Assembly: GCA_029237695.1 (NCBI GenBank)
Contig: CM055272.1
Location: 30,762,791 to 30,826,790, forward strand
Direction of reading: 5' to 3'
Length of the DNA stretch: 64,000 nt
Source of the DNA: Conchocele bisecta
Lineage: Eukaryota; Mollusca; Bivalvia; Lucinida; Thyasiridae
Part shown: positions 4,068 through 63,043 of the stretch, piece by piece
Layout of the letters: the number at the start of each line of letters is the position of its first letter
How positions within the stretch are numbered: position 1 is the stretch's first letter
Made by a program: the position numbers and the translations under genes
The notes under the pieces: generated by a model
What the model saw: the letters and a program-made list of their open reading frames with translations, nothing else
What the model was told of the DNA's origin: nothing
Databases searched by the model: none

Positions 4068-4110
4068 TACTTAAATGACACAATGATATTTTTATTTTGT
4101 TTTTGAACAG

Positions 4111-20200: not shown

Positions 20201-23200
20201 ATGTCTTTGTTTTATTTACCCCGTGCATGACTGTACCACAAGGAATACTCAAGGTTTGGACGCTCAGCCATTATTTTCTCTGGTGCTGCACTTAACTAAA
20301 ATAAGTCGCCTCCGATATGTTACCTACGGCTACAATTTGACCCATTAAAAAGTGTGAGCAACCGAAGTACATACACACAATTGTTGCGTGTAGGTCAACA
20401 TTTAGTATACTGTGTATTTTATACCTATATAATCATTGATGTACAACTAGTAAATTGTAAAAAATTAAAGAATAGGGGAAACATTTTCCCGTGGAAGCTA
20501 TCGTTTCTCTTGTTGTTGTTCTACATTCAACATAACGAAATGAAGCTTTCAAATTTACAAGATATACATGTAAATGTCAGATAAACATCTCGACACGGTA
20601 AACCAACCAATGTATGCATGTGTTTGTTCTTTATCAATAATTTATCGATACAGCTTTGACAGTTTTGTATCGCTAACATTTCAAACACGCCGGATAACAG
20701 ATTGCAAAAATCACTCTTCCATGTGTTACATTAAAGAGATGGGATTAAATTGCTACCCTCGCGACTGGTATTGAGCGGGGTAGCCATTTTGTTTCAACTG
20801 CACTCTGCGCCGGCGTAAGGCCATACCCAAGGTGCATGAAATCTTGCCCACTCCAAAGTAAGTATTATGTGATATTTTCCTTAATATGAAACGGATTTTG
20901 ATGAAATATGGCGCAGCAAACGCGTCCTCGTGAGCTGCATTTGGTCGTTCAGTGAGTTCGGCACAGACTTATGTCGTTTTGGCGAAGAATCGATTTCCGT
21001 GTCTACCGAGTCGGAAATCGATTCTTCGCAAGCACGACAGAGAAGTTTGGGCCACATCACAGAGACCATCAAATGCAGCTTAACAAGACGCGTTTGATGC
21101 GCCATATTTCCTCAAAATCCGTTACGTAATAAGGACAATATAAAATAATACGTACTTTGAATCGGATGAATTCTGGAAGTTTCAGTACTTGTTGTTGTTG
21201 TTAGTACCACGTGATTATACACCTTGATACCATATATTTTCTATGTTAAGGACCAACTATATACCTCATCATCGTTTGATTCAAAGATAATTGCTTCGTA
21301 AATGTGAATAATGTATAACATGCATGTATATTATGTGAACACTGCCTCGTTACTGTATCCTATACGGCACATGGGGTGGCCAAGTCGGCCATCATTGTGT
21401 TTTCCAGCCATCAGCTAGTTTCACATGTTCTGCCGGTTGACAAAGAACTAAAAATGTGAAGTAGAACATATGATCACATCAATGTTTATCTAGGGATGAT
21501 GCTTCATTACGCACACCCCCACATCCAAATTCTCAAGGCCAAGGTCATTTATTTACTTGTAATGTTTACCGGTTTTGTAACAGAAATGCGTTAAAGTTAT
21601 TGTTTTTTTCACAATATATGCTGTATGTGTCGAATGCACGAAGTGGTGCAACTGTACGATTGCTTGTACATACAAAGATGGCGGAGATGGAAACTCAATG
21701 CTCCATATAGTATACTGTGTCAAGACAATATTCACATACGTTATATTAATATTTTACATCACTCTTATGAAGCAATTATCATTGAAGTCAAATGTATCTA
21801 TCTATCACCTATTACCTTAAGCGTCCATCCAGTTGACCAAAACCTGCCTACGTATCCTTTAACAACAAACAAGGCCTTGACAAAAACAACTATTGTATAC
21901 TTATGTTAAAAACTTCCTCAACCCTGGAAGTTTTTAGCATACATTTAAATTTCCGCAATCAATCTTTAGAAACAAAAACGATAAACATACTCTATCAAAC
22001 TGGACATTCACGAACAGATTTAACACTTGGACAAGTCCCCAATCAGTTTTCATATTACTTCACTAGTAAATATTGTAAAATAGCATAAACAGTGTGTTTG
22101 TTTTTTCATAGAACTACTTTCAAAACCTACCCGCACGCGGACGCTTACCAGAGAAAGAACATGCTATGGACACGGTGCCGTGAAACATTTTTGATATCCA
22201 GTCAATACAATTTTTGCATTTTACAGCCATTTGAAGGTGTTGACGGGATAAATAGAGCCTCGCCCATCCCGTTTCCTGAGCCTTGCCAGATATTTTTTCC
22301 CATTCACGGCACTAACCTACTATTCTCTATTTCACCTCCACTCACATCCGCAAATATAGGTCTGTCCATTCACATGTCCATTGTTTATATGACTCCGCAG
22401 TCTGTTCTGATTGCAGATTGCTTCAAGCGAAGCGTGTGGGCACGTTTCTTGTCCGCAACACCCAGACTGGGCCTGGTAAGGTATGTTTGGTCAATCGTCG
22501 GATACACAGGTGTAAGACTCGGACCTGTGACATCAACAATGAACATTAAACAAATCCTATTACTCCACCCACCTGGTATCGTACTGTACGTTACATACTC
22601 ATGTAGAAATGTGATTGTAGACTATATACGTAACATACAGAACGGAACTAGGTGGGTGGGGTAAATTTTCAATGGACATTGTATGTCAAAAGTTCGAGTC
22701 TTCCACCTTTGCTCGGATAAAAAGATTAACACAGTAACACAGCTTAATGCTCAGACAATCAAGTTACTTGATTTCAAGCACATTCTTCAAGTATTTTTAA
22801 ATAAGGAAGTTGACGATATTGGCAAGATTAGCGTAGGCTGTAGTGTAGGAGGTGAGTTGTGTCACAGACGTTGACAACATGGGCGACAAAACCGCGCTTG
22901 AAATGTACAGTTCGAGTGATTATCATAGATCTCTTGACTTTGTCTTGTACTTTTAAACACAATTTTTGTCGTCTGTCGTTTTTATTAATTTCCAATTTTC
23001 TCAACAAAAACATGGTTTGACAGGAATTTAGAATCATTTCCATTGGAAATGATTCTAAAGGGCTGTCAAACCATGTTTTTCTTGAGAAAAAAGAGAGAAC
23101 ATAAGACACAGCAGCAGACGATAATGTTCAGTTCCCGCCTTTTACGGGTTACAACCTCACAATGCTGTTGGATTGAGCAAAGTTCCGAGTCAGCAATTAA

Positions 23201-42599: not shown

Positions 42600-43674
42600 C
42601 AGCAACTGTGATAAGCACATACTTTGTAAATTGCTCTGTACTAGTACATGTATACGTAAAGGCAAATTATTTTGTTTTTTAAATCACAATACTATACCAA
42701 CTTGAGAAAGATGTTCCCACTATAGATGATAGTGTAATTATTTTAGCTATTTGTTCCTGATCTATTTTATACCGTTCTCGGCTTATTTGAGACCCAGTGC
42801 CTTTGATACGGGAAGTCGGATACACAGGGTTTACCTCGGCTGTCATTGGTACTGCTTTATAAACTATGTGTGGGTGGGCTGTTGCGTTTATTGTATTATG
42901 AACAACAGTTGGTCTGTTTAATGTGCGTGGAGTCCGAAGGCAGTGGTCACATCTATGTTATACTTATATCACATCACATTTACGAACCAATTATGTTAAA
43001 TGATCAGATGATCAGGGGTCACACCGATCCTCGTTGACTATCTTGATATGTATTTTTTTTTAAACAAATACCATATTCAAAGTATATGATCACGTGGTTT
43101 ACAACAACAACAACACGTACTGAAAGTACATGTACGTATTCTTTTATTTTGTCCTTATAGTCATGGCCCTGTCATAAAGATCCGTATACACTTTCATTAG
43201 CATAGACTTTGACAGCTGATTTGAATATGGGATACCCCAGTGTCAAGAATCTACTAGGTGGATTATGTGATTTTCAAGCATGTCCGATACAGCTATGATG
43301 TTAAAAAAACATATTAGACGTTGCCTATTTACCGTAACGCAAGATGGCCGCCATCAAAATTCCAGAAAAATGTCAACATGTGTAAGCCTTGATATGAGCG
43401 TAGTAGATGAGTTTGGTGTCCATAATGATGTATACCAAATATAGCGAAAGTGTAAAAAATCATTTTAGATGTTACCTAGTTGCAATATTCAAGATGGCCG
43501 CCATAAAACAGTTTGATAGCAATTATAAGCAATTGGTACATATACATATATGAATGTATACATATTTCGATTGGAACGTAGTAGACTGATGCATTGCAAA
43601 ACATACAGCATGACAGTCAATACAAACATCAATCAAATGGCTTAAACTCCCATGCCACTGACCAAATAGTCTGA

Positions 43675-46600
43675 TTACTTATTTGGGCACACGGATTTTT
43701 GTTGTTTATGACAAAAGCTAACGCATTTTTTTCTGACCTGTTTACATGGACAGCGCTTTGTGTAACACATTTCTGTGCATTTACAGATGACAAGCTCCTC
43801 ATGTGGTAGTGGATTGACACATTTTGCAGGCAAGATGGTGCCATAATCACTCACCCAACCATAGTTCATTGGATCTGGAGTAGAATGGGTGTCGTTTAGA
43901 AGACACAGGACATTAAGCACAACAAGAAATGCTCTATGGATATGACCATGAATCACACTGCTATATAGGGGTATGGCTTACAGAGGGTTCGGTGGCGATG
44001 CTCGGATATGCCACTCTACCCGAAGCTCGTATTTGACTGCACCAGCCCACACATGAACCATATATTCCACAGCCTTCTGACCCATTGCTTCAGTTAACTG
44101 ATCTGACTCTGCAAAGTCGGCTAGGAATTAATGCGATTCACAGGAGACAGATGTGTGTTTTGTGCTAAACTTGCTCATAGTATCTTCGCCAGTGAGGACA
44201 TGTGCTTTAAATATGACCCTGCACAGTCGCACTATCAACGTATCGGCGATAACATGAGTGGTAGATGACGCCTATGCTCACCGGAGCCAAACTCTACCAA
44301 AAATTCCTGAAGTACCTTCTCACGTAATTGAGGCATAAACCGAAGTAAGGCCACTATTGTATCTGTATCATTGGAGATCAAAAGCACCCACACACTCACT
44401 CCCACGACCCACTTCCCAACCACAGTGCAGAACAATGCGATCATCGGCTTCTTGTACATCACACGTCAGCGCTTCGATAGGTACCGCATTTTTAGATGAC
44501 AGTGGTGTTGATGCTCTGTAAGCATATAACATGTGGGCTGGAAGAACTGCCTCGTCTGTGATGCATCCACTAAGCACGATGATCAGCTTGGCCAGTTCGG
44601 AAGTTGGTGCCAGCTGGCGAGCCAGCTGCTGAAACTGGATTGTATTGGTTGGTGATGTGCAGTATTGGGACATCATTTGTGATTTATATGAGGTAAACAG
44701 ACCCTACTCCTCCAGCAAGACGGAGCCTTTCCCCAGATTTAATGACGACTGCAGGTAACTATCAAACACGACGTGGAGACTGGCCCTCGAACAAACTGCA
44801 TGGCCTGCATATAGGGCACAGCTAATTGCGGGATTGAATGTTCCAAATGATGTTCATTTTGGAAATGACCGAATTTTAGACATGATTTCTAAGATAACGC
44901 ATACATTTCCCCTAGTAATTGTTTTGTCATCTGTTACATACTTTTGCGGGAATCCTCGCACTTTTGTCAGGTTTGGATGGGAGGTCACCTTCAAATAGTG
45001 TTGAAGTTTGGATGATATCATGGCCATATATAGAGTTGAATGCCATCCCCCGATCTTTGACGATCTCAATGTCACGCTGAGCTGCTGTTATTAGCTTGGA
45101 TGACAGAGTCACATGAGCTGTAGCTTCATTGGCAGCTAGTTTGTAGTACATTTGTGGCAGGTTTCTTTTTGATATGGCGGCAGACGTATTTTAGTATTTT
45201 GTAGGAACCGCTCTTACATGAATTCTTTGACCAGTATATCTCCATTCTCTAACATCTGGAGCAGCCGTACAGCCACTTGATCTTCTACCAATTGTGTTAT
45301 GGAACTTAATGCCCTCACTTTGGATTAAGTATGGATTGCCTCTATCTCAAACAACGTCCAGACGCCTTGTCAAATTTTCATTGAGCTTATCAGCTTTGCA
45401 ACCAGTAAGTTCATTATGCACCCTTGCTGATTCGCGGTGATTCATCGATACATCACTCATCATTTCCCGGAAAATATTTGAGACAAGTAAAATTTCGTGG
45501 AATATAAGCTTCCACTCGACTGTGATTGCGAGGTTTCTAGTTTGTCCCTCAATACCACCTGTACTCTTTGGCGATCTCTGGATCAATTTTTCCAGCTTCA
45601 TATATGGTGCAACAGCATTAAAAGAATCCTCAGCCCGATCCGTCACAATCAACTGACCACTCATGAAGTACTGGTAGATCTTGTGATTGGTTGCTTCTAA
45701 CTGTGGTAGGGACGGGGTGTGGCTCCCTGTCGGGAATGTACTTCGCGTTGTTGTTTAAGTTGGTATCTGCTATTTATCCCTCCACTAGGCACGTGATCGT
45801 TCCCATGTTCTGATTTTCGGATGTATAGTTGGGACTGGGGATGTTGTGGTCTGTTGTGAATGGTGGCTGGAGTGGTACTGGGGGACTGTACTGTGACTGA
45901 ATGGGACTGAGAAAATTATATGTGATTCTCAGACGTAATTGCAACTATCAGTCAGGATTGTCCCAGGTATGGGGCAATCCGGCTTGATTTATTTACGCCA
46001 GAGGGCCAGAGTATTAAAAGGGAAAAGCAAATCAATTATATTTCAATCTTTTATCATTTGTACTGTTTCACAAGAGTATTTATTAGCAGGAAATAATAGA
46101 AAAGAATAGTTTCTGTGAATGTGAAGTTAACTCAGTATCGGGTGGATTTAGCTAATTATATCCCACATGACTGGCAGTGTATTTGAATCTTCCCCCATTC
46201 TGGCAGAGTTGATCTGCACTGAATAGGAGATTTAAAGTATTTCCCGGAAAATATTTGACACAAGTAGAATTTCGTGGAATATAAGCTTCCACTCGACTGT
46301 GATTGCGAGGTTTCTAGTTTGTCCCTCAATACCACCTGTACTCTTTTGCGATCTCTGGATCAATTGTTCCAGCTTCATCTATGGTGCAACAGCATTAAAA
46401 GAATCCGTCACAACCAACTGACCACTCATGAAGTGCTGGAAGATCTTGGAATTGGTTGCTTCTAACACATTTGCCGATTCCAGGTAGAAGGTACCGTAGT
46501 AGAGGTAATATAGAGAGTCGCTCTCCTGAAAGATCGTCAGAGATTTTTCTATAGAGGCCATGTATACAAGAGGGAAGTTTCCTTCTCGATCTGATGTTAC

Positions 46601-47340
46601 AGCATGCTTCATGACGCTAGCTATGTGCTGAAACTGTTGTAAGTACTGGCCCATCTCAGACTTTGCACAACATTCATTAATGAAACACTCAAATTGTTCA
46701 TGATGTTCTGAAGATTGATGGACAAGCTCTGCTAACTTCTCGACTGACAACTTCTCACAAAATGCACGATGTACCTCGACTGCACAGGTCATTATATTAG
46801 CATTGATCTTGTGACCACTGTGTAACAACCACTGCCAGATAGCCTCCCGTGTCAACAAACTGTTCAGGTCTGAAACCATCATTATTCATTGGAAGGAGTG
46901 AACATAATGACTGCCTTCCAACACAGAGTTCAATTTCAGTCTACCAAACACTTCCGTCTCGATAAGAGCATCCTCAATCCTCTAATATACCGCCTAGCAC
47001 ACATCATGCGGATTTCGACCCATTGAAACATTCCCATTATGCCATGAACATAGGAAAATTAATTTGGTTCAGTTATCATGATATCAGCCACAGTATGAAA
47101 TACACCCACATAACAAAATGCAGGTATGAGGGACTGAGATGGGGTTGAGTTGCGGACGGAAACAGTATATAACAGAGCATGCGAACCACCTCGTGTAGGC
47201 AGTGTACAATAAGTAGCATGACACTTTGGTAGTCCTAACGTGATGAAGGATATAAGAAACTCGCGCTGATCTGCTTCACGGAGAGCAGACACACACTCAA
47301 TATGCTTGGTTTCACTGATGATTTGGGGGTGAGTGGGCAC
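43675..47340 (-). pseudogene. Decayed protein of element 1: FEN/XPG-like acidic motifs and Cys-rich tail
   Basis: Pieces read on the - strand from 47340 down to 43675, broken by stops and frameshifts. In order: HPQIISETKHIECVSALREA (47340-47059); 46882-46379 with FQESDSLYYLYYGTFYLESA and FMSGQLVVTD; MKLEKLIQRS and STGGIEGQTRNLAITVEWKL (45664-45347); GHDIIQTSTLFEGDLPSKPD (45151-44927); HVVFDSYLQSSL near 44757-44775; EADDRIVLHC (near 44451); SNDTDTIVALLRFMP (near 44375) and VEFGSGEHRRHLPL; and a tail CKCTEMCYTKRCPCKQVRKK (43956-43675). VVFD, EADD and NDTD resemble the metal-binding blocks of PIN/FEN1-type nucleases. I recognise this as a multicopy uncharacterised invertebrate family; its role is not known to me. 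Confidence 0.6.
45462..46466. repeat. Internal direct duplication in the element-1 gene
   Basis: 45462-45701 and 46239-46466 are near-identical (TTCCACTCGACTGTGATTGC and following), about 777 bp apart. The 537 bp between (45702-46238) are unlike the gene. The second copy joins the upstream part of the gene smoothly, so a partial duplication plus insertion is likely. Confidence 0.8.
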
Positions 47341-48767
47341 TTCTTGTCATGGTAGTTTCACAGGCGTCCACGCTGTATCCAACAATCTGATTATGAATAT
47401 CCATAAATACAGAATAAGTAGTAAAATGGTACCATATTGCATGGTCTGACATATTAACCTCAATACATGTTTGCCATTTATGTATAACATTATTTTAAGC
47501 CATTTGACTGATGTTTTTTATTGACCGTCATGCTGCAATTTTGGTAATGCATCAGTTTAGTTTACAAGTTCATTGTCAATGTCAATGTTACTATATACAG
47601 TACTATACAAATGGGATTGGATTGAAAGCAAGCTTATTTAAATCATGTCCCTTTAATGCATCAGTTTACTACGTTCCAATCAAAGTTTACGTTCATTTGT
47701 TTTACAGACTTTTGTGGCGGCCATCTTGGATTCTGATAACAAGACAACATCTAAAATGTATATTGATACCACTGATGTGCCCCGTATGCATGGAAACTCC
47801 ATAATACACAAACACAATGTACCAATTGCTTATATTCCCATCAAAATTAGCACATCATTGCCTGTTTGGAGGATATTTTATGGCGGCCATCTGGAATTGT
47901 GCAACTAGGTAACATCTAAATGATTTTTTACACAATAGCTATATATGGTATACATGGAAACATAATTATGGACGCCAAGCTCATTCATCTACTACGCTCA
48001 TATCAAGAATTACACAGGTTTACATTTTTTGTCGACTTTTGATGGCGGACATCTTGGATTACGGTAAATAGGCAACGTCATGACATCACAGCTGCATCGG
48101 ACATGCCTATAAATCACATAATTGACACCAAACTCATCAATATACTACATTCCTATCCAAAGTTATATGCGTTTCAGTTTTGATACATGCCTGCCGGCAG
48201 CCATCTTGGAAAATGGCCGCTCCCTGACTCATGCTATGAATTTTGGAATTCCACCTAGTAGATTCTTGACACTGGGGGTATTCCATATTCAAATCAGCTG
48301 TCAAAGTCTATGCTAATGCAAATATATACGGGTCGCTATGGCAGGGCCTGGACTATTATTCTGTAACGGATTTTGATGAAATATAGCGCATCAAACGCGT
48401 CTTGTAAATCTGCATTTGGTGGTCTCCGTACTTGGGACAAACTTCTGTCATTTTTGCAAAGAATCAATTTCCGTGTCACTGACACGGAAATCGATTCTTC
48501 GCAAAAACGACACGAAAATGTGCCGAACTCCCGGGACCACTAAATGCAGCTCATGAATACGCGTTTGCTGCGCCATATTTCATCAAAATCAGTCGACTAT
48601 TAAGGAAAATATCAAATAATACTTACTTTGGAGTGGGCGCCCTGTCTACCAACACTTTGAGCCATTGATGTTGTTGTTGTAACCATGTGATCATGCACCT
48701 TGATATTGAATCATCACTCAGGTGAAATCCACTACATGTATGTAGCACGGTCTGAGTACATGATATC

Positions 48768-48948
48768 ACAGGTGAAAGACTCGCACCTAGGACCCAATAA
48801 ATGGCTCATTCGAAAAGCGTTACCCAACCCCCCCCCCCCCCCATTTGCATACACTATACATTATAGCCTAGTGCATGGAAATGGGTGGGTGGGGTAACGT
48901 TTTCCATATGAGCCATTTATTGGGTCCTATGTCCGAGAATTTCACCTC
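48768..48948. mobile_element. Foldback element with CAGGTGAAA ends and poly-C arm
   Basis: ACCTAGGACCCAATAAATGG with CTCATTCGAAAAGCGTTACC is mirrored by GTGGGGTAACGTTTTCCATA and GAGCCATTTATTGGGTCCTA. A run of 14 C (48829-48842) faces GGGTGGGTGGGG on the other arm. The ATG-bearing frames inside are incidental. Confidence 0.7.
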
Positions 48949-49099
48949 TGGATGGTATCTGCAGCCAATGTTGTTGTTGTTGTTGTTGATCGTTCCGTTC
49001 GTCGTAGGACAACCCCTTGATGAGTTGGAAAGAGGGCTTTATATTTGCTTTAATCCGTCACCAAGGAATCCGCTACCACTACGCAATTAATACCATCAC

Positions 49100-50365
49100 C
49101 GGTGTACTGAAATACTAGTTCACAATTTTCTTAGCCTTATCGTGTGTCACACCCCTTTCGTTTTCTTCTAGCTAGAATTATTTCGAGCATTTTGTATCAC
49201 TTTGGACCATGATCCATGGGCGTCGACATCCTTTTGAATAGGGCGTTCGACTTTCAGCCATGAAGCAACCGAAATATGTAAGGGGTCCAGGGTTTGGTTA
49301 TGTATGAACAACAACTAGCTCCCGGACAAATAGTTTTGGGCCTAATTTAAGAAGGCACATGCTGATCTGGATCAACACTGGTCGCATATGCCATGCACTC
49401 CATTTCGTCAGTCAACGTCGTATCAATGCGGTTATAATCAGAGTTTATCTTCATTCATTCATTCGGCTCATATTTAAGGGTGGGAATTGGCTCGGACACC
49501 TTCCATACCCGGGATATATAGCCCAGTAAAGAAGCAGGCCGATGGTCGTCGGTCTGATTTATATTTCTGAATTTTGATAAATGTTGCATTTATAATTCAG
49601 GCTCCAAAAATGTGCGTCAAATATAGGAGAATCTATGCAGGTATGGTAACCTATAATTTTAGGCCTCCTATAGCACCCATCAGCTTATATGTGTGTGATA
49701 TAGTATGGCTGGGTATCGATTATAGATGATTGAGGGGAACCCATACTAGTTTACGTGATTTGTGCGTTTTGAGTGGCATACGGACTGGTCAAATGAAATT
49801 AAGTGGCGAGTGTACTATCTGAGTCACTAATGTCTAGCAAGTGTGCTCTACGTAATTAACTTATAGTCACATTTAGTCCCAATCCTACATAATCACCATC
49901 AAGAAGAGAAGAGAAGAAGAAAGTGATTTCTGACGGTATGGTATTTGACGTGCCACCCTCACCCTATGTTAGTGTGCTGTATCAGAATGCTATATTAACC
50001 TATCATGATAACCGTGGTTGCTGATTTTGTGTTGTTAATTGGGTTTTATATATATATATTTGTTTTTGTTATTTACTAGCATTTATTTAATTTTAGTTTA
50101 GTTTTGAGTCACCTACCACACCGTCAGATTTTGACCGAAATAGACTAATACACATTAAATCGTTTGATTTTTGTCTATATTGGAGTAATGCAGATTGTCA
50201 ATTTCGACATAAAAAGCAATTACTCCTGGTGGAGGAAACCTCCAGCTTCCCCGGTAGCTCCGGAGTCCCTGTAGTAAAGCTCAATTTCATTGAATTAGTG
50301 GACCACATCAACCCATCCATACACCCGCCAACTACACACCACATCACTTAGCCCAGCCCCCATTC
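49100..50365. other. Non-coding stretch, nothing recognised
   Basis: No open frame of interest and no clear inverted-repeat element; short TATATA and AAGAGAAGAG runs only. Confidence 0.4.
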
Positions 50366-50374
50366 AATCAATCA

Positions 50375-50590
50375 CACAAACGCACGCACGCACGCACACT
50401 CAAGCAGGCAGGCACACACAGACGTACATACACAGACGTACATACACATATACATATGTACACACACATATATACCCATACACACATATACACACATACA
50501 TATATATATATATGCATACACACACCCACACACACACACACATACATACATATATATATATACATACACACACCCACACACACACACAGA
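50375..50590. repeat. CA/TA-rich microsatellite cluster
   Basis: Mixed (CACA)n, (CATA)n and (GCAC)n repeats. The long Cys/Tyr/Val-rich reverse frames here are repeat artefacts. It is followed by a family-D fragment (50600-50846) with GTGCCGTGAAACTGTGTTGA. Confidence 0.9.
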
Positions 50591-51236
50591 GTTTATCTCG
50601 TCAATACAGTGCGTATGTACCGTGAAACACGGTGCCGTGAAACTGTGTTGATATCCAGTCAATACGACTTAATCACTGCTTATGAACATGTGCGGTGGCT
50701 GGGGTTATTATTTTGCATTTTAAAGCCATTTGTATGTGTTGACGGGATAAATAGAATAGTAGGTTAGTGCCGTGAATGGGAAATAATAAATAATATCTGG
50801 CGCGGCACGGAAACGGGATGTGCTCGGGAGAGCCTTGCCCATCCTAATGATTAAATCGAAAACCGTATATACCATAATCCTGGTCTAGACTGATCACAAG
50901 GTTGTTTTACACTATAAATCAGTTATATGCAATGCATAATTTTACAACAACGTTGTGTTTTTAAAGCTTCATGTCACAGTTTCAAAAGGGGAAATCACCA
51001 ATATTTTCACCAATATTCTGTATTGCGATGTTTTCCCATTCACGGCACTAACCTACTATTCTCTATTTGAACAGTGTCCCGTTGTCATATTTCTCAATGT
51101 ACACTAACTATAAATTATTCTCCAATTTGTTATCGCATGAGGTAGTAAGTTAATAAATTTGTTTTAGCTTATTTTGTTTTCATCGTCTATAAATACATTA
51201 AATATAGCATGAGGTCGTAAAGTCAGGTGTCAAGTT

Positions 51237-52060
51237 AAAGTTGGTGCCCCATCTAGTAGGCATAGCATGTGTACGTTATATAGGAATGAATGGCCTTTTT
51301 GTGGAATTTATCGGGGATATAAACTTGGAAAAGTCGCGGGAATACTGGACGAAGGCCGGAAGGCCTCGTCCAGTATTCCCGCGACTTTTCCAAGTTTATA
51401 TCCCCGATAAATTCAACAAAAAGGCCATTCATTCCTTATAATTCCAGCATTTGAAATAAATTCATCAAGAAAATGTGTTTATTTTCTATTTTCTTAAGAA
51501 TTATTTTAACTGCGCCTCACGGTTACGGAAAGTAGTTCGGCGTGGGAGTTTACTGGGATATACATTTTGGACAGAGACTTGCTACGGGCCAATCAAATGT
51601 TAGGGAATTGTGTAAATATTTGTGTGCTGGAATTATTATGAGTTAAATAGGTGTATACTTGTGTAACTATTCCACGAATTTTAAAAGTTATGACTTGCCC
51701 GCTATACATATATAATCATTTAGTAATCCTTATTTTACTGATAGTGACTCGCGGGGGTATGAAGCTATTTTGATATGCAAATTAGGTAGGACATTTTTAA
51801 ATTATAAAAATTAAATCATTATCGCCAGAATATAAAAGTATGATCATTGTACATACAAAATAAATGCAGAGAATAGCTATTAATTTCCGTTAACATTTTG
51901 TATTTAGGGAAACACGGTTATCGCCCCTGATATCGGTGTGGCAGTTCATGATTGATATACGATGTATAATAATGCCAATTATATCGTCGGGAAATGTCTA
52001 ACAAATGGACGAAAATAATATGCCTCCCTATATTATAACCTGGAACGTGGGACTCTAGCT
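51237..52060. mobile_element. TTAA-flanked element of family E-prime with a nested palindrome
   Basis: TTAAAGTTGGTGCCCCATC at the left; GTGGGACTCTAGC then TTAA (52061-52064) at the right, imperfect inverted ends. The interior (AGTGACTCGCGGGGGTATGA, TGATATGCAAATTAGG) matches 17805-18245. A 156-bp palindrome sits at 51284-51439. Confidence 0.6.
51284..51439. repeat. Near-perfect 156-bp palindrome
   Basis: Arms of about 75 bp (GGAATGAATGGCCTTTTTGT.. and ..CGCGGGAATACTGGACGA) are mirrored with about one mismatch around GGCCGGAAGGCC. Cruciform-forming on DNA and hairpin-forming on RNA. Confidence 0.9.
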
Positions 52061-52064
52061 TTAA

Positions 52065-52270
52065 CCCTTAGATTGCGGGAAACGAAAATAGTCGTCTGCT
52101 GTTGTGTTAGATTTTATCTTCTTTCTCAATATAAGCATGGTTTGACAGCACTTTAGAATCATTTCCATTGGAAATGATTCTAAAGTGTTGTCAAAACATG
52201 TGTTTTAAAAGTAAAATGGAAAATAAAAAATAAAGAGCAGACGACAAAAATTAATTCAGCACTGTAAGGG
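52065..52270. mobile_element. Hairpin element family F, intact, TTAA-flanked
   Basis: TTAA (52061-52064) then CCCTTAGATTGC at the left; CACTGTAAGGG then TTAA (52271-52274) at the right. GTCGTCTGCT is mirrored by AGCAGACGAC. The core GAATCATTTCCATTGGAAAT is mirrored. CCCT termini with TTAA are piggyBac-like. Confidence 0.8.
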
Positions 52271-52294
52271 TTAAACAAGACAGTTTAAATTGTA

Positions 52295-53875
52295 TACTCA
52301 ACAAAACTAGAAACGTCCCTGTTTTATAGCCGGTGTAGCTCTGTCTATGTATGTACCACATGTTCAAAGTACATGTATTTTAAACCGTGGCGATGTTCAG
52401 AATACGATCGTGTAGAGTTTAGCCGATACACACAGTTTACATAGCGGCCAGTGACCGGAACGTTGATTTCCACTTTTTGCACGTGCACGCTATACTTGTC
52501 ATCGATAAGGTGATTCAGTTCATGTCGTACCATTCATGCGATAGGGGCTATTCGGAAAATTAAAAAACTTTTTTAATTTTTCACTGTTTTCGATATGCCA
52601 CGGCATTCCGAAAACGAGCGAAATCAGGCAATTGGGATGTTTGCGGGTGGGATGGCCGCCAGGGCGGTCGCGCCTCGGTTTGGTTGCTGTCGGAAGACGA
52701 TTGATCGTCTTGCAGCCCGGTACCAGCAGACTGGGGCTGTTCACGACCGGCAGCGACCGGTGGTAGGCCTCGTGTAACGACGGCTAGAGCCGATCGTTAC
52801 ATTACGTTGACGCACTTACGTCAACGTCGATTGGCAGCCACAGTCACTGCTAGGCGATACGGTGTCTCAGGGCAGACCATTCGCAACCGGTTACGTCGTA
52901 ACGCCCAACCAATCCGGGCACGCCGCCCGTACACTGGTCAGATAATGACACAACGTCACCGTGCTGCCAGACTGTTATGGGCGCGACGTCATCTGAACTG
53001 GAGAAGGGCTGACTGGAACCGAGTTTTGTTCACCGATGAATCTCGGTTCACAGTTAGTCATGCTGACGGAAGATTACGGGTATACAGGCGTAAAAATGAA
53101 AGATTCACCGATTGTTGCATTGTTGAGAAGAACAGGTTTGGGGGAGGGAGCGTAATGGTCTGGGGTGGGATCATGGGAAACCGGAAGACAGATTTGGTTG
53201 TTGTACAGGGCAACATCAATGCACAACGTTATGTTGCAGATGTGCTAAATGCACATGCCATACCATTTATCCGTCAGCATGATCCTGGCGTGACATTGAT
53301 GCACGACAATGCCCGCCCTCACGTAGCCAGGGTCACCACTCAATACTTACAGCAAAACAACGTCGACGTCATGCCATGGCCCGCGGTCTCCCCGGATCTC
53401 AATCCCATTGAGCACATATGGGATGAGCTGGGCCGCAAAGCACGAGCTAACCATCAGATTGACAATGTTCGCGATCTTACACGGGCGTTACAACGGAAAT
53501 GGAGGAATTTGCCCAACGCACTGGTATTGCGTTGCGTCACGTCGATGCGGCGTAGGATCATTGCATGCATTCATGCAAATGGTGGCCACACTCGGTACTA
53601 ACGAGATTTACTGAATTTGCCACATTACTTATTGAAATTCCATCTCTAAACATTAAGTAACACATTTCTGAGTTTTTGTGATTTTTGATTTTGACCCCTA
53701 CCGCCCTTGGCCGGTTATCTCTCGAATATTTAACAAGATATCCAAATGCAATTTATTGGCTTTGATACAGAAATGAATGAACTTGTCTTTCCATTTTGAT
53801 TTTTAAAAGTAACCCTTTTGGTTTTTGATGAATCTTTCCTTAAACATGGAGGGACGTTTCTAGTTTTGCTCAGTA
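52295..53875 (+). mobile_element. Tc1-like transposon, 1,581 bp, intact ends
   Basis: 26-bp terminal inverted repeats (TACTCAACAAAACTAGAAAC.. left; ..GTTTCTAGTTTTGCTCAGTA right) differ at two positions and are flanked by TA (52293-52294, 53876-53877). It encodes one DD34E transposase with a single frameshift. Length, TA target and end structure are standard for Tc1/mariner. Confidence 0.95.
52595..53601 (+). pseudogene. Tc1-family DD34E transposase, one frameshift
   Basis: The N-terminal part (52595-52777) is a helix-turn-helix DNA-binding domain (RHSENERNQAIGMF, APRFGCCRKTIDRL). The frame is lost near 52757-52768, just before the Gly-Arg-Pro-Arg type linker, and resumes as TARADRYITLTHLRQRRLAA and a second helix-turn-helix (YGVSGQTIRNRLRR). 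The catalytic core has LFTDESRF (first Asp), HDNARPHVA (second Asp) and SPDLNPIEHIWDELGRK (Glu), with 34 residues between the last two. A 1-nt loss is the only visible lesion, so this copy is recently dead or trans-mobilised. Confidence 0.93.
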
Positions 53876-54286
53876 TATATCCACACTCCTGCCAATATAC
53901 ACAGTATCTGCATTAAATTGTATTATCGATATATATGCGTGTGTACTAAATTTGTATACGACCCGGAACAAGGAATCAATTTTAAAGTGGTGTATTAATA
54001 GAAGGCAGATTAGTATGTCAATTTGTACGTGTTCTGTGTCGCATTAAGACACGCCATCTACTTGAAAGTAAAGTGTTATTAAATCATAAGCGATTGTTGA
54101 AACAAAATACATGCTTAGAAAGGTAGACACGTGTACTGGAGCGAGAAAAGGACATTGAGGATCTACTTCACATAAGGTCAATGTCATTTGTATGCACAGG
54201 ATTGTGATAACTTAAACCTAAATTATTCAAAATATAAATACTTAGGTATGTATTTACGCAGTAGATGGTACATTTAGCTTGCACTA

Positions 54287-54776
54287 CTGTCTGTTTCACG
54301 AAACCTTCCCAAATTTTACGGCCATATAAACAATGAAAACACGTTGTTGTTTTTTTTAGATAATATTAAATTTTATCAAAATTTACGAATGAGCCTTTTA
54401 TTACGAAAAATTGATTTGTCTATGGGAATTTAACATAGGGGGAAAAGAGGTGGAGGAGTTGTGGGCGGAGTAAAAAAATAAAAGAAAATGGAATTTGACT
54501 CTGAAACCTATCTAGATTGCTTAGAAATGGTCTAACTAAGAAAATAAAAGTTAAATTTTGAAAATCGGTCCAGCATTTCTGAAATTAAACATTTTCCCAA
54601 TGTTAGCTGTGAAGATGTCTATGGGGATTTAACATTTCGCAATATAATCAATATTGGACAAAGTTGATGATATACAAAGAACGATCATTCTTAAAGTTTG
54701 CTTTAATTTAATATTTTCGAGAAAGAAAAGTGGTTATATGGCCGTAAAATCTGGGCAGGCTTCGTGAAACAGACAG
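54287..54776. mobile_element. Foldback MITE family I, full copy
   Basis: TA then CTGTCTGTTTCACGAAACC at the left; GGCTTCGTGAAACAGACAG then TA at the right. CAAATTTTACGGCCATATAA is mirrored by TTATATGGCCGTAAAATCTG. About 490 bp, no coding. Confidence 0.85.
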
Positions 54777-54999
54777 TAATCAGTATGCACATGTATAGAT
54801 CATGATATAAGAAGGTACACGTTCATTAATTTTCTACTTTAACACATTCAGCTGAAGGTCAACGTGTGTTCACAACATATATGTGGGTGTGACTGGAGAA
54901 ATGGGCCTTATGTGTTGTGCAACAAATGTAGCCCTAGATCAGCCTGCGCATCCCGTATGGATGAAAACATGGATGCTCAAATGTTTTATGAAGAGATTA

Positions 55000-55502
55000 A
55001 AGTTAAATGCCCACAACATGTCCTTTATAGGAATTAAATAAGTGTATAATTGTGTCACTATTCCACCAGTTATAAAAGATACGAGTAAATTTAACTGACT
55101 CGATGACCTTGCATGTCGGGACCGACCGATAGGAGCACAAAGTTGCCTTGCCCAAGGGCAGGCCGAATCTGCCATTCGGAGCAGGTCGATGATCTACCTA
55201 CTGAGATAATGTGGCCACCTTAAACTTGCGAGTACCCACTATACAGATATAATAATTTAGTAATATTTATCTTACTGATAGTGACTCGCAGTCAATGGTG
55301 AATGAATGCTTGTACATGTATTGCCAGAAAATGTCTCAGATGATGTCTCTGACATAAAGAACATGTTGTGCCTACTCAGTGGACAGGTACCTTTAACCCT
55401 CACTTTGCTGAATTGAATTGTGTCGTCTGCTGGAAATGTTTTATTTTCAATATTTCTCGATAAAAACCTGTTTTGACAGCACATGAGAATCGTCTCCAAT
55501 GG
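55000..55502. mobile_element. MITE E followed by truncated hairpin F sharing one TTAA
   Basis: Element E runs from about 55000 to 55392 (GTGCCTACTCAGTGGACAGG, then TACCT and TTAA at 55393-55396), with extra non-E sequence at 55098-55210. Hairpin F starts at 55397 (CCCTCACTTTGC) and stops mid-hairpin at 55502, where a family-I element begins. Confidence 0.65.
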
Positions 55503-55965
55503 AGCAAAATTTAAGAATGAGCCTTCTTTGTATTTCGTGAAATTTGGTCAAATATTGGTTTTATTACGAAAAATTTATTTCTCTATGGGAATTTAACATG
55601 GGGGAAAAAGAGGTAGAGGAGTTGTGGGAGGAGTCAAAAAACGAAACCTAGCTAGATAGCTTGGAAATGATCTAACTAAGAAAACAAAAGTTAAATTTTA
55701 AAAATCGGTCCAGTATTTCTGAAATTCTAAAAAATGTCCCCATGTTAAATCCCCATAGACATCTTCACTCTGTGAAGATTTCTATGGGGATTTAACATGG
55801 GGAAATTGTTTTTTCGCAATAAAATCAATATTTGACCAAATTTCACGAAATAAAAAGAAGTCTCATTCTTAAATTTTCTTTTAATTTAATATTATCGAAA
55901 ACAAGATTGTTTTTGAATTGTTTATATGGCCGCACAATTTGGGCAGCTTTCGTGAAACAGACAGT
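55503..55965. mobile_element. MITE family I, left-truncated copy
   Basis: It starts at AAATTTAAGAATGAGCC and ends GTGAAACAGACAG then TA. It contains the CCCATGTTAAATCCCCATAG palindrome, ATGGGGATTTAACATGGGG, shared with 57200-57260. Confidence 0.75.
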
Positions 55966-56013
55966 AGAACAACAGTTACAAAATGTGTTTTTTTTTCTGT
56001 TGTGGTATACATA

Positions 56014-56532
56014 CAGAGGAACCTCTACACCAGACAACAAGAAAACATCTGTGATCATATTTTTGATGAGTTTCTTGGTCATTTATCTCAGGTGATAATG
56101 TCTGTTTATGATCGCATAGCACAAAGCTATGACTCAGAATGATCAAATACCTGTAGCCGATTTCACCAACACTGCAAAGTATACTTTTCTAGCAAAGAAT
56201 GCTTTGAGGGAGTAATCATTTATTTTTCCTGAAATGCATTATTTCATGTAGAACTAACGACTGCATATATTTGATGATTAAAAGTATGCAGAATTATTAT
56301 ACTGAATTTATTACATTATCACAGCCAAAATGGCTGTGATAATGTAATACATTCAGTATAATAAAAAATAATAAATTCATCCTAAAATTGAAAATTTCTC
56401 CCTCAAAGTATACTTCGCTCGAAAAGTTTACTTTGCAATGTTGGTGAAATAGGCTACTGATTTACAGTGAAACCTCTCTAAAGCGGACACCCTGGGAGGT
56501 CCCAGGGTGTCCATATTAGAGAGGTTTCACTG
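56014..56532. mobile_element. pogo-like MITE P, copy 5, split by a family-A MITE
   Basis: TA then CAGAGGAACCTCTACACCAG at the left; AGAGAGGTTTCACTG then TA at the right. Reading CAAATACCTG (56144-56153) straight to ATTTACAGTG (56460) rebuilds the continuous sequence seen at 6415-6435, so the 303-bp insert is later. Confidence 0.85.
56154..56456. mobile_element. Palindromic MITE family A, copy 3 (CTG duplication)
   Basis: TAGCCGATTTCACCAACACT to TGTTGGTGAAATAGGCTA, flanked by CTG (56151-56153 and 56457-56459). The uninterrupted site in MITE P copy 2 has CTG once, which confirms a 3-bp duplication. Confidence 0.92.
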
Positions 56533-56717
56533 TAACACGTTTTTGTTCCACTGTATATGCCATACTGCACTAATACAGCAGGTAATACTGGCCTATCGCT
56601 GTCTCGGATGACAACAGAAGTACATACACAAGTACAAGATACACATGCTTACGGAAGTAACCACTGCATATTCATCGTACCGACGTTCACAAATCCACAG
56701 AGCCCGTATTTATGTTA

Positions 56718-57700
56718 AAGGTACATGCCCACTCAGTAGGCACAAACTGTTCTTTATATCAGAGACATCATCTGAGATATTTTTTGGCAAAATGAAACAT
56801 TAATTCACCAGTACCCCACGTATTGATTGGCAGTATTATACAGTTTATATCAGACGTAAATGTCCACACTGATATCAGGGGCGATAACCGTGTTTCCTTA
56901 AAATGTTAACGGACGTGACTATTGATTCTCTGCATTTATTTTTGATTTTATTGTTTCAGGTGAAGCATTTAAATAGTATAAATAAATTAAATATAGCATG
57001 CCTCATTTGCATTTGAGTATAGCCTGATACCACCGCGCATCACTATCAGTAAAATACATATTACTGTTGTCTGTTTCACGAAAGCTGCCCAAATTTTACG
57101 GCTATATAAACAATTCAAAAACAAGATTTCTTTTGATAATATTAAATTAAATGAAAAATTAAGAATGAGCCTTCTTTTTATTTCGTGAAATTTGGTCAAA
57201 CATTGATTTTATTGCGAAAAAACAATTTCCCCATGTCTATGGGGATTTAACATGGGGAAATTCTTTTGAATTTTAGAAATACTGGACCGATTTTTGAAAT
57301 TTAACTTTTGTTTTCTTAGTTAGATCACATCCAAGCTATCTAGCCAGGTTTCGGAGTCAATTTCCAATTGTTTTCGTTTTTTGACTCCTCCCACACTTTT
57401 TTGTTAAATTCCCATAGACAAATCAATTTTTCGTAATAAAATCAATATTTGACCGAATTTCACGAAATAAAAAGAAGGCTCATTCTTGAATTTTCCTTTA
57501 ATTTAATATTATCGAAACAAATATTTTATTTGAATTGTCTATATAGCCGTAAAATTTGGGCAGGTTTCGTGAAACAGATCGTAAATGATTATATGTGTAT
57601 AGCGGGCACTCGAAATTGTAGAACTGGTGGAATAGTGACACAATTATACACTTATTTACTTATTATAAACAACATACTGGGTGGGCATGTATGTACCTTT
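56718..57700. mobile_element. MITE family E, split by a family-I MITE
   Basis: Left end GTTAAAGGTACATGCCCACT; right end TGGGTGGGCATGTATGTACC. The family-I copy at 57063-57585 (CTGTTTCACGAAAGCTGCCC .. GGTTTCGTGAAACAGATCG) lies in the middle; E sequence resumes at TAAATGATTATATG. Confidence 0.75.
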
Positions 57701-57701
57701 G

Positions 57702-57950
57702 AAGGCACTGGGGCCCGTTTCACTAAACTTCGTACGACTAAATTGTTCGTAAGGATCGTCTGGAAATTTCAATGAATGGATTTACATTTATTGAGCATAT
57801 GCTGCATATGCAGCTTATGCTCAACAAATGTGAATCCAATAATTGTTTGCAAGAAAACGTTGTTAATGTGAAATTTACAGACTATCATAAGTTTGCACTT
57901 ACGAACATTTTAGTCGTACGAAGTTTAGTGAAACGGGCCACAGTGCCTTT
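57702..57950. mobile_element. Foldback MITE family B, copy 3
   Basis: AAGGCACTGGGGCCCGTTTC to GAAACGGGCCACAGTGCCTT, with ACTAAACTTCGTACGACTAA mirrored and the core TGCATATGCAGCTTATGCTC. Confidence 0.85.
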
Positions 57951-58021
57951 AAAGGAACATGCCCATGTATGCACAGAATTAAGATAACTTCCTAATTTGT
58001 TCAAAATACATAGAAGATATT

Positions 58022-58093
58022 CGTGGTGTGACATGTCCATATTTCACGAGTGCCTAACGGCACTCGTGAAATATGGACATTTCACACCACTCG
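58022..58093. repeat. Hairpin, about 33-bp arms
   Basis: CGTGGTGTGACATGTCCATA and TTTCACGAGTGCC are mirrored by GGCACTCGTGAAATATGGAC and ATTTCACACCACTCG. The centre is TAAC. Confidence 0.85.
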
Positions 58094-59318
58094 ATGAACA
58101 TATATGTCATATTCGTTGCAAAAATATCAATATTCTATTTATTATATACCGCTCCATGGAAATTAGCAGTTTTTTTTAGACTGTATACGGTAATGAATGT
58201 GTATTTGCAGCCGGCACTGCAGATGCGCGTTATGAATATAGATAGCGGAAGTAGTCGTATTTTCACCGGAAGTTGTTTATTTCATCGATGAGAGCATATT
58301 ACTTTTATTTACATCGTATAACTATGTATTTCATGGGTAGGTATATAATAAAAATAGGTATTTGCGTGTAGTTCAAGTAACATAGTATACCACTATTCGT
58401 CCGTCCATCCGTCCCGTTTTTTGGCTATCCGTTATATTTCTGCAACCCTAAGTCTGATTGACTTGAAACTACACATACCTTTGTATCACCATGTATTTTT
58501 TTATTCCATAGCCCACACAGTATAATCGGAGCTCACGCCCGCTGTCAATGTCAAATTGCTTAAAAGTTTTTGTGTTACAGTCTTGACAAAACTTGCTTTA
58601 ACGTTTTTGAATACTTATCGTTTCTACAAGCCTACCTGTAATAGTCGGGTGATTTATGTAAAGTCGTGCGATATGTCTGCCGAAAGTGATTTGTTTGGCT
58701 AAAAGTATTATTTAGGGACTTAGTAAGCAGCAAAAACGTGGTGGCAATTTTACTTTTCATTTTTGATTCTTTTACGGGCCCGCGAAAATACCCCACCCAC
58801 TTATTTTCTATTATACACGGGATCATATTTGCACCAGCTCTATATACGTGATAAAAATAATATTTGTACCCAGACAATTTATATTATGACACACAATAGA
58901 CAAGGTAATATCATAAATGTCTATGTACGTTGTATACATCCGTGAAAATACCCCACCCACCAATTTACCTGTATGAATATTTGTGTTAGTTGACATTTTA
59001 ATAGATGTGAGTAAGTCTTGGACAATACACTTTTTCTTTGTTCTAAATTGATGTATTGTGTCCCAGATAGACACACTAATGGACGACCCGGCATTTCAAT
59101 TCGTATGCGATGTTCTGTTACCCCCCCCCCCCCCCTCACTGCTGCACTATTTAATTTATAAAATAGCGTCAATATATAACGAATAGTGTAAGTTGAGTGG
59201 CGGTGTATCTACCTATTATATTTGAATATTGCATATGTAATACTATAATATACTGGCATTAGCATGCCAACATATGAAAGAGAAAATAAAAAGAGCAGGA
59301 AAAGAAGTAACATATATA

Positions 59319-59347
59319 TCGTGTTATATATATATATATATTAACAC
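59319..59347. repeat. TA-rich hairpin
   Basis: CGTGTTATATATATATATA is mirrored to TTAACACG. It lies in the part of the element from which the gene's C-terminus is missing. Confidence 0.6.
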
Positions 59348-59759
59348 GATGCCAAAGCAATATATGAACCACAAGGGCAACATTCTGAGCGTACATCGGT
59401 AATCGCAGATTCTTCAAAAGACGCAGAGGTACACGCAGCTGTGTACGGTTCCCCTAATTCCTAATTGACAAAAAATAACACAACAGACACAAACCGACAA
59501 CCGAAATAATTATATATGAGAATGCGACGAATGCGCCATATAATACAAATGTCAATAAAGTCCTAACAAACAAACGCCTCATCCAAGTATAAATGACAGA
59601 CGATAATAAGTTGCTGGAGGTCAATCGATGAGTCCAAATATAGGTAGACCACGTGTATTATCATATCCTAGCCTCGTGTTCGTGCATAATAGCTACATGA
59701 TAAAGTTCACATGCATGCATGTCAATATAATAATGTATCTTGGTGCGCAAACTAGACAT

Positions 59760-59846
59760 GTAGTGTGGCTCAGTGGTAATGAAGCGGGAGAATATCCGTT
59801 TGCAGAACTTTTATTCATTTTATTTGGTCGAGAGTTCGAACCTCAC
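59760..59846 (+). ncRNA. tRNA-like segment (SINE head or tRNA pseudogene)
   Basis: TGTGGCTCAGTGGTAATG resembles an A box (TRGCNNAGYNGG) and GAGTTCGAACCTC a B box with a 7-nt TTCGAAC loop on a 3-bp stem. About 65 bp separate the boxes. The acceptor and anticodon arms are poor, so an active tRNA is unlikely; a SINE promoter remnant is the better guess. Confidence 0.35.
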
Positions 59847-60143
59847 AAACTCATTACTTTTGCCGATATAATTCTGTTCTTTTTATGACTTATTGCTGGA
59901 GAAGGGAATAAGTGAAACGGCGATGTGACATGATCGGCGAGAACATACTCTTCAAGTATACAGATATGAAATGTGCATTCAGTTATTAGCTTTCTTCAAA
60001 GTGAGACCAACGTTCTACATGTAATCTCATGCTTTGTTAAATGAACGCAATTTGTATGAGCAACACGTACGCATAAAAAATAAATATATAATAAAATATA
60101 AAGAAATCAAAATATATGTGTATATACATGTATGTATGCAAAA

Positions 60144-61771
60144 CTAAGTTTTATAAGACACATTGCGTATGTTCATGCAATCATGTATTATGAATTTCCC
60201 TGGCTGTGTCTTACCCGCACGCTTGACTCTTGTCTTTTCCTTCAGTGAGCCACTAGTGTATCTGTCAAATATTACTCTTCCTTCGGAATAACCGGTCATC
60301 AGTTTCGATATGCGTTGCAAAAACGCATCCCCAAAGTCTGATATTGTGTCCATTCCAGGTACTTTTGTTATGGATTGAACGACGGCCTGTGCATCTATTA
60401 TTATCACATTCTCTCCGGCATCAGTGGGCACACACATATCGTTGTCCTTGTCAGTATTGTTATCGAGATTGGCATCGGAAGTTGTACTACACATTGCAAT
60501 GTCCTCGCCTGTCTGAACTGGATTTTCTACTGTTCTAATTGTAAGTTCTCCTAACTCGGCAACATTAGTATTCTCATTAGATGCAGCTGAAGTTTTGTAC
60601 CAGCCTCTGTAGCTTGTCCGAACTTTTCTATTTCCTTCATAAGTGAGTCTTTTTCCGATGGTAGCAGCAATGTTCCGTCAGTAGCAAAGAGAGATCGTGG
60701 TGTTATAGCCATCTCATAATTTCCGATTGTTTCCCCCAGCTTCGACATCATGTCTGGGCGTGCCTGTTGAACGACTAAAAACCGCGCAAGTAATTGACGA
60801 TCTTCACGAAGCTTCACTACTTTGTTGCCGATTGCTACATTTGATTTTGTCAAACATGTGCTGTGTGTTTTCAGCTTCAATTTTTCAATTCTATCCCAAA
60901 CAGATAGCGCAGATGCCGTTCTCAATCGCGTTTCTACCAACTATTAATACCGTTCAGTTCCCTTCTCATCTCTGTTAAGAATGTCGTACACTGCAGTGTC
61001 TGGTAAAGGCATCATAGAAACTATGTTTGCCAGTGGCAGCTTGTTTTCGAATGGATTTCCATCGCAGTGGCTTTCTCTAGACATATTTTGATTGTTGCTG
61101 CATTTCTTGCAGCTCGTGTGCCAAATGTCCCAGACAATTGATAATGTTCTTCAGGGCGTGAGCTGCTACCGGATGAATACAATGACTGAAGCTCACCGAC
61201 GATGCGTGTCATTTCGGGAGCTGTGAGTAGGAATCGATTGAGCGTTGGTTCACTTTTAGTTATACCAGTAATGCCTCCAACCACCTGCTCTAGAGTCTGA
61301 TCCACAAACAGATTGGTAAATGGTATACCAGTTTTCTTCACACAAAAATCACCTTCTTCGAGTGCTTTCCATGTTTCAGGTCATTCGGTCTTGAGCTCGT
61401 TCATCTGGGCAATGTGTACTGGAATCAAGCGTGTGTAGTTGTATAAATCATGCGCGAATCAGTATTTTACTTGCTCATCGAGGGCTGACAAATATTCGTT
61501 CCAATTGCCCTGCCTACATGCGCGGATCAGGTGAAGAAGGCACTCGACCTGGTGTAAATAGTTCATGATTCTCCACTAGCCTCGTCTGTCGTGTCTTTGT
61601 CAAGTATATCTGCGTAGTTGGCGCAAATGTCGTTGAAACATTTGTTACAGTGTGGGCTCGCACAACCCATCCTTTTTTTGCTATTTTACACTGGTTCACA
61701 TCAGTCGTCTTCAAACGGTAAGTTTTGTCACGTATACAAAGCGTGTGCAAAAATGTAAGCGATATTAACAT
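60144..61771 (-). pseudogene. Decayed protein of element 2, same family as element 1
   Basis: It begins at ATG 61771, directly against a GGGTGGGG terminal motif. Pieces: 61771-61514; then NWNEYLSALDEQVKY, FAHDLYNYTRLIPVHIAQMN and PETWKALEEGDFCVKKTGIP across two stops; FTNLFVDQTLEQVVGGITGI and LNRFLLTAPEMTRIVGELQS (to 61021); 60940-60551 with AITPRSLFATDGTLLLPSEK; 60494-60144 with NVIIIDAQAVVQSI, SDFGDAFLQRISKLMTGYSE, VIFDRYTSGSLKEKTRVKR, HDCMNIRNVS. Alignment with element 1 runs through YY/YN..LEQ..GGI.G.T..E and VxFDxYxxxSL. The EAD / DTD and Cys-rich parts are missing; the gene is cut at 60144. The IDA and VIFD..KR blocks match the first two acidic blocks of FEN1-type nucleases. Confidence 0.6.
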
Positions 61772-62359
61772 AGTGGGTGGGGTATTTTCGCGGGCCGTAA
61801 GCGATTAAAAATGAAAAATGAAACTGCCACCTAAGAAATTTCGTATGCGTTCGTTAAGAATACCATGTTAAAGTTTACATAATTGCTACACACAACATGT
61901 ACATATACATTTACAAAACACCAACAATATTCATACTGGCAAATAGGTGGGTGGGTATTTTCGCGTCGGTATACAGAAAAAAAAACAACTCGTCATTGGA
62001 ATATTAATTAATTGATTTTAAATCATCCGACGATAACATCACACTCAAAATATCAGTTTCATCATGTAAGTAAAGCTGATGCGAACGCGAACCCGTGTGT
62101 AACAGTAAAAAAGTGGGTGGGGTATTTTCGTCGGCCTGTAAAAAGTGTTAAAAAATAAAAAGTAAAATTGCCACCACGTTTTATCTGTTTAATAAGTCCA
62201 TCAACAACACTTTTAGCAAAGAAAATCAATTTCGGCAGACATATCGCACGGGAGCCTGTATCCTACCGTCCAGTACTACTAAAAAGTCCAATTCACTTGA
62301 AACATTATATTCGTGTAACGTGTTTATATTACCCTTCATATATTCATTCCAGAGCCTAC

Positions 62360-62640
62360 GGAACAATTCTTTCCCTCAATTTAACAATTCGTTCCCACGA
62401 TTTAACAATTTGTTCCCACGAATTAACGATTCGTTCCCTCGAATTAACAATTAATTCCCACGAAATAACAATTCGTTCCCTCGAATTGACAATTCGTTCA
62501 TACGAAATAACAATTCGTTCCCTGCATTTAACAATTCAAACAGGAACGGGAACGAATTGTTAATTCGTGGGAACGAATTAATTCGAGGGAACGAATTGTT
62601 AAATTCGAGGGAAGGAACTGTTATTTCGTGGGAACGAATT
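62360..62640. repeat. 21-bp tandem repeat array with an inverted half
   Basis: Eight units like ATTCGTTCCCTCGAATTAACA run to about 62535, followed by inverted units (GAACGAATTGTTAATTCGTG). A multiple-of-three period leaves an open frame (LTIRS(H/L)(E/D) repeats) that is not taken as a gene. It ends exactly at the TTAA of the next MITE. Confidence 0.85.
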
Positions 62641-62883: not shown

Positions 62884-63043
62884 TGAAAACAAATTCTACG
62901 TCCTCTGCGGGGCTCCGTGTGAGTCTACCCATTGCGCAAGGTCAATGTGAATTTGCGCAAACTGTGCGTTACAGTTTTTGGATTAACTTATCCATACATT
63001 CTATGGCTCGGCCACATTTTACAATGTCACGGTCAAATCTGGG

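Follow-up and report, generated by a model that had tools for sequence, protein, structure and literature searches.

The stretch of Conchocele bisecta DNA analysed here (contig CM055272.1 of assembly GCA_029237695.1, positions 30,762,791 to 30,826,790; 64,000 nucleotides, hereafter the window) contains two decayed inverted-repeat elements, E1 and E2, each carrying on its minus strand the remnant of a gene of one protein family (Table 1). The original prediction, made from the letters alone, had placed E1 at 43158-48355 and E2 at about 58665-62250, and had described in both a single plan of long inverted ends, short motifs recurring inside both ends and one gene. This plan is borne out by our results. 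The inverted arms of E1 (43157-43238 and 48275-48356; 82 nt, 88% identity) and the TTA duplication on either side confirm the proposed bounds exactly. The inverted arms of E2 lie where they had been placed (58665-58764 and 62151-62250; 100 nt, 87%), with a second pair at 58770-58865 and 62048-62143 (96 nt, 79%), but comparison with other copies (L031, L033, L034, L035 and L038) puts its true ends at 58642 and 62281, 23 and 31 bp outside the matched arms. Relative to these other copies the right tip of the window E2 is 2 bp short.

At the DNA level E1 and E2 gave no match to each other by blastn, in agreement with the claim that their ends lack obvious similarity, though TAGT forms the first bases of both. 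Three family profiles, built without window sequence, were compared with all 1,670 stop-to-stop frames of at least 25 amino acids in the window, and matches at E<=1e-3 were confined to the frames of the two gene remnants; profile A1 matched 15 frames within the E1 gene. The two proteins, earlier aligned by eye, thus do belong to the same family, but since direct tblastn of the E1 frames against E2 DNA found no match at E<=0.01, their kinship is visible with profiles only. The E1 remnant begins downstream of the first catalytic Asp of a DDE domain, has Tyr at the position of the second (CYVGVF, by eye), and displays many frame breaks as well as an internal duplication (45462-45701 and 46239-46466; matches of 168 nt with 97% and of 64 nt with 92% identity, at a near-identical offset). 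In the E2 remnant both catalytic Asp, most of a nuclease domain and the cysteine-rich (CXC) tail are missing. The window copies look like orphans because they have lost the catalytic N-terminal half or carry mutations in it; a Pfam search of ten window frames gave nothing above the cut-off.

Table 1. Features of E1 and E2 and related sites in the window.
Feature	Position	Strand	Remarks
Related empty site for window E1	21017..21227	-	repeat copy lacking E1; identity to joined flanks 77%
E1, decayed Academ-type element	43158..48355	no strand	5198 bp; terminal inverted repeats, target duplication, further copies, empty site
E1 target duplication TTA, left	43155..43157		related empty site at window 21017-21227
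E1 target duplication TTA, right	48356..48358		related empty site likewise
E1 left terminal inverted repeat	43158..43238	+	starts TAGTCATGGCCCTG
E1 right terminal inverted repeat	48275..48355	-	ends GGACTA
E1 left subterminal motifs AAGATGGCCGCCAT	43341..43504	+	at 43341 and 43491
E1 right subterminal motifs	47714..48207	-	at 47714, 47880, 48042, 48194
E1 broken transposase/nuclease gene	43678..47346	-	N- to C-terminal pieces run 47346 to 43678
E1 C-terminal cysteine-rich (CXC) segment	43678..43977	-	A1 profile E 8.3e-33
E2, decayed non-autonomous element, same superfamily as E1	58642..62281	no strand	3640 bp
E2 left terminal repeat (matched inner portion)	58665..58865	+	
E2 right terminal repeat (matched inner portion)	62048..62250	-	
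E2 left subterminal motifs CGAAAATACCCCACCCAC	58783..58960	+	at 58783 and 58943
E2 right subterminal motifs	61773..62130	-	61773, 62113, weaker third between; looser pattern
E2 gene remnant	60147..61575	-	middle of protein only, profile A2 columns 798-1188 of 1551

Both elements are multicopy. The left end of E1 has at least 78 matched pieces in its own genome (40 scored of 224 candidates), and the left terminal repeat of E2 at least 40 matches (40 of 40 scored, of 392 candidates). For E1, 33 places were chosen and 20 of them examined; for E2 we examined 8 of 40. In 15 of the 20 E1 copies both ends lie within 10 kb of each other, while the remaining five (L009, L014, L016, L019 and L022) have no second end within that distance; three E2 copies (L032, L036 and L037) lack one end. 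Exact 3-bp target duplications were found at 15 of the 19 independent sites that retain both ends (13 E1 and 6 E2, window copies included), and 4-bp duplications at two (L013 and L020), against chance expectations from mispaired flanks of 1.17 and 0.17, respectively; two sites showed no exact duplication. In this set L020, L025 and L027, which have common flanks, were counted as one site, as were L024 and L028. These flank-sharing E1 copies, at C10:24.6-25.0 Mb and C2:92.8-93.0 Mb, probably arose by segmental duplication rather than transposition.

Empty sites were sought by joining the flanks, removing one duplication and looking for relatives of the target repeat. In addition to the relative of the window E1 target, an uninterrupted relative of the L010 target was found in the window (13108-12891) and elsewhere, and one of the L015 target within L037, both with small indels near the junction; for the E2 copy L033 the uninserted target is its own tandem neighbour. 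Two further comparisons were not counted, that of L012, where the junction was not spanned, and that of L024 with L022, which was poor. Because uninserted relatives of the target repeats run through the junctions, E1 and E2 are true insertions. The multicopy state, the position inside inverted repeats and the constant 3-bp duplications, which the original prediction had named as its own check, together with the empty sites make it very likely that the shared gene is the mobility enzyme of both elements, as had been proposed. The target repeat of L010 belongs to a palindromic family with window members at 12891-13108, 57708-57918 and 63037-63240. L015 contains a diverged protein of the same family (3588-3935, plus strand; 27-32% identity to the E1 and E2 frames), apparently nested within the E1 copy. 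A 21-bp satellite like AACAATTCGTTCCCTCGAATT, in both orientations, adjoins E2 at 62341-62642, and similar units occur at 1-177 of L041, next to its full-length element, and at the end of L039.

It could be argued that the gene is a passenger, i.e. that a host gene family was repeatedly caught in unrelated inverted-repeat elements moved by an unrelated transposase, as the DDE domain is incomplete in the gene of the E1 and E2 copies. We regard this as the least probable of the alternatives considered here, and highly improbable: tblastn with the E1 frames matched 18 of the 20 examined E1 copies, and the protein family was matched in seven of the eight E2 copies. Moreover, L041, from the same genome, is a complete element of 6,742 bp (212-6953) that starts with TAGTCC, finishes with GGACTA and has 252-nt inverted repeats (91%) and a TAT/TAT target duplication, and its sole frame of at least 300 amino acids encodes the family protein. 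This single open frame of 1,446 amino acids retains every DDE and nuclease residue and closes with a cysteine-rich stretch, and the left end of the element is 78% identical to an E1 end over 68 bp. L040 holds a similar open frame of 1,407 amino acids with the same residues; no terminal repeats were found in its available stretch.

The family is present in many animal records, and a search of the genome with one relative gave at least 58 matches (39 scored of 12,272 first-look candidates). In the intact relatives, L041 included, the D, D, E triad is almost invariant and the strand order is RNase-H-like, and here the earlier statement that no DDE motif is to be seen, which holds for the two window copies, fails. 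From models, with middling structural scores, we infer a DDE fold for this half of the protein, and the other enzymatic domain is modelled as a FEN1/XPG-type nuclease whose acidic residues are nearly invariant. C-terminal cysteines are conserved as well; two relatives are named Tesmin/TSO1-like CXC by UniRef, and no Pfam CXC match occurred in five proteins. A search of PDB sequences with one relative gave no match. Among the copies themselves, the profile match reached the first catalytic Asp in none of the 20 examined E1 copies, and six of the eight E2 copies start beyond both catalytic Asp, L037 has the nuclease end only and L032 has no gene. E1 and E2 are presumably non-autonomous remnants that were once moved in trans by full-length relatives. 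One could alternatively suppose that the FEN1/XPG nuclease does the cutting instead of the DDE domain (a PIN-nuclease transposase), which would be compatible with AcademX membership. Its acids are nearly invariant, longer E2 copies retain it, and in all E2 copies where the gene can be detected the match leaves out both DDE aspartates. However, the D1, D2 and E residues show the same invariance, DDE enzymes are what produces short duplications of fixed length and defined ends, and mobilisation in trans would account for the E2 copies, and we consider this explanation very unlikely, if slightly less so than a passenger gene.

Taken together, our results favor the assignment of E1 and E2, with a probability of roughly 0.87, as copies, dead and with internal deletions, from two cut-and-paste DNA transposon families in the nuclease-bearing branch (AcademX) of the Academ superfamily. 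The superfamily and this lineage reportedly go back to Kapitonov and Jurka in 2010 and Kojima in 2020. The family shares with AcademX a DDE transposase combined with a nuclease, 3-4 bp duplications, animal hosts, a size of about 5-7 kb and abundance in bivalves, and differs insofar that E1 and E2 are internally deleted. The transposase, by triad and strand order, is found in the relatives and in L041 and is not intact in the window copies; the nuclease is likewise found in the relatives, and duplications of 3 or 4 bp occur at 17 of the 19 sites and in L041. The superfamily and its AcademX lineage are treated in PMC10045372 and PMC4455052; according to the former, duplications within Academ are of 9 or 10 bp in AcademH and of 3 or 4 bp in AcademX, linked to helicase and nuclease, respectively. 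According to PMC10294476, Academ is among molluscs found almost exclusively in bivalves, where 100 consensus sequences were curated with a mean length of 5,565 bp, and Academ-1 appears in the repeat table of PMC8905726. The undescribed transposon class of the original prediction finds no support here, since intact relatives with a D, D, E triad and a FEN1/XPG nuclease fit the features of AcademX; as far as sequence and predicted structure reach, they hold an overlooked transposase of a known kind.

Other superfamilies fit less well. AcademH belongs to the same superfamily and has a helicase in place of the nuclease and 9 or 10 bp duplications (PMC10045372). No helicase occurred among the Pfam rows of five proteins, no site of 19 had identical flanks of 5-8 bp, and no 9-10 bp duplication appeared in a comparison in which the right end of the window E1 and the left end of the window E2 were one base off. 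hAT elements duplicate 8 bp, found at none of the 19 sites, and Transib/RAG 5 bp; neither hAT (Hermes) nor RAG1/Transib is known to have an XPG-type nuclease. Pfam transposase models exist for KDZ (Kyakuja-Dileera-Zisupton), CMC and Harbinger, and these domains were unmatched in five long relatives (Pfam-A, E<=10). There is no sign of a link to viruses, because the eight rows at E<=0.001 in a viral library searched by fold reflect this same domain, those with a name being XRN/FEN1/G5R-like nucleases, and sequence searches were empty (viral contigs with the E1-type alignment, plasmids by DNA with E2).

The assignment should nevertheless be interpreted with some caution, as several observations weigh against it. 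The Academ name is based on features and not on a sequence match to a named Academ. As background, AcademX has an XPG-like nuclease and Academ a Cys8 zinc finger. The Pfam-A search of the five long relatives returned three DUF (domain of unknown function) rows, all below the cut-off. The model of the DDE half had no Foldseek match at E<=0.001; in VIA, where alone Hermes, ISCth4 and RAG1 rise, Z was only middling, and most rows were winged-helix matches to residues 187-276. None of 13 near relatives in the E2 subfamily aligns at D1 and 11 do at D2, in a search that returned only proteins up to about 1,260 amino acids. L021 has no exact duplication, nor does the window E2 (flanks TAA and AAA), and the nuclease's role in transposition is conjectural. 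The same DDE, FEN1/XPG and CXC plan could instead define an unnamed superfamily, a lineage separate from the AcademX of Repbase. The feature-based naming would allow this, and among the 120 relatives listed nearly all are without a precomputed Pfam domain, and the names, where given, are mostly 'hypothetical', 'uncharacterized' or 'CXC'. On the other hand, duplication length, nuclease and bivalve abundance match the printed features of Academ and AcademX, and given the many animal records absence from Repbase would be surprising; we think a separate superfamily unlikely. Among the papers listed by a literature search, none combined 'Academ' with 'XPG', or CXC, PIN, transposon and terminal inverted repeat. 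Within AcademX, the window would then offer an anatomy, open to checking, of an animal superfamily about which little is known, with exact ends, duplications, empty sites, the residues for catalysis in the two enzymes and, elsewhere in this genome, a full-length element. It also shows why such genes pass for orphans: nearly all have no precomputed Pfam domain and those with names mostly have uninformative ones, and yet they look transposase-like.

Mechanistically, an autonomous partner such as L041 would make a single multidomain protein. DNA-binding parts, including a winged-helix-like stretch, lie near its N-terminus, and it further comprises a DDE transposase that bears a helical insertion, a nuclease of the FEN1/XPG type and a CXC tail. 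The TAGT ends and the spaced subterminal motifs are its probable binding sites, and it would excise the element and join it to a target staggered by 3 bp, leaving duplications of 3 and sometimes 4 bp; the task of the nuclease is probably to trim flaps, or a single strand, at the element ends or the target. The strands cut, the role of the nuclease, the binding of the motifs and the mobilisation of defective copies in trans are inferred.

The subterminal motifs predicted inside both ends were found left and right in E1 and in E2. In window positions 1-42000, searched with equal tolerance, there were three occurrences of the E1 motif and none of the E2 motif. Among 15 E1 elements (including the duplicated-site copies L025, L027 and L028, and excluding L013) 28 of 30 ends have at least two motifs, typically 148, 310, 472 and 630 bp from the tip, and 72 of 74 spacings are 150-170 bp; ends off register include L018 right, L021 left, both of L028 and the left end of the window E1. 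The E2 motif, unrelated in sequence, is present in all 12 ends of six elements, first at 141-153 bp and later mostly at 288-321 and 461-494 bp, with 15 of 17 spacings of 155-174 bp. In L041 the E1 motif lies 147 bp from either tip, once on the left and twice on the right (the second at 290 bp, 143 bp apart). As the units around the motifs are weakly similar tandem repeats, more clearly in E1 than in E2, the period may just equal the unit length. In raw counts, two unrelated motif types have one period in common, and the fixed spacing of 150-175 bp in two families is a testable oddity. In E1 the motif consensus CCAAGATGGCCGCCaT includes a YY1-like core; the E1 motif CCAAGATGGCCGCCAT has an AAGATGGC core resembling that of the host factor YY1. 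PMC4669652 gives AAgATGGCggcg as a YY1-binding motif. The distance from the tip to the first motif is roughly that of a nucleosome core (147 bp) and the others follow every ~160 bp, in families with different sequences. It could be speculated, as a rather doubtful idea, that the ends are built for reading in chromatin and that the transposase (or YY1) binds linker sites between phased nucleosomes and so pairs the ends. Motif arrays of 150-175 bp were not found described for AcademX in a search that did not cover the original Academ papers, and none of the titles listed in our literature searches concerned end arrays of this gene family.

Elsewhere in the window, an open frame of 298 amino acids at 52705-53601 is of the Tc1/mariner transposase type (Pfam DDE_3, E 1.6e-16). 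Frames like those of long interspersed nuclear elements (LINEs) lie at 38129-41554 and 28142-28624, among them a reverse-transcriptase-like frame of 614 amino acids (by eye). Upstream of or near these frames occur GDVERNPGP and GDIEMNPGP, presumably 2A-like motifs.
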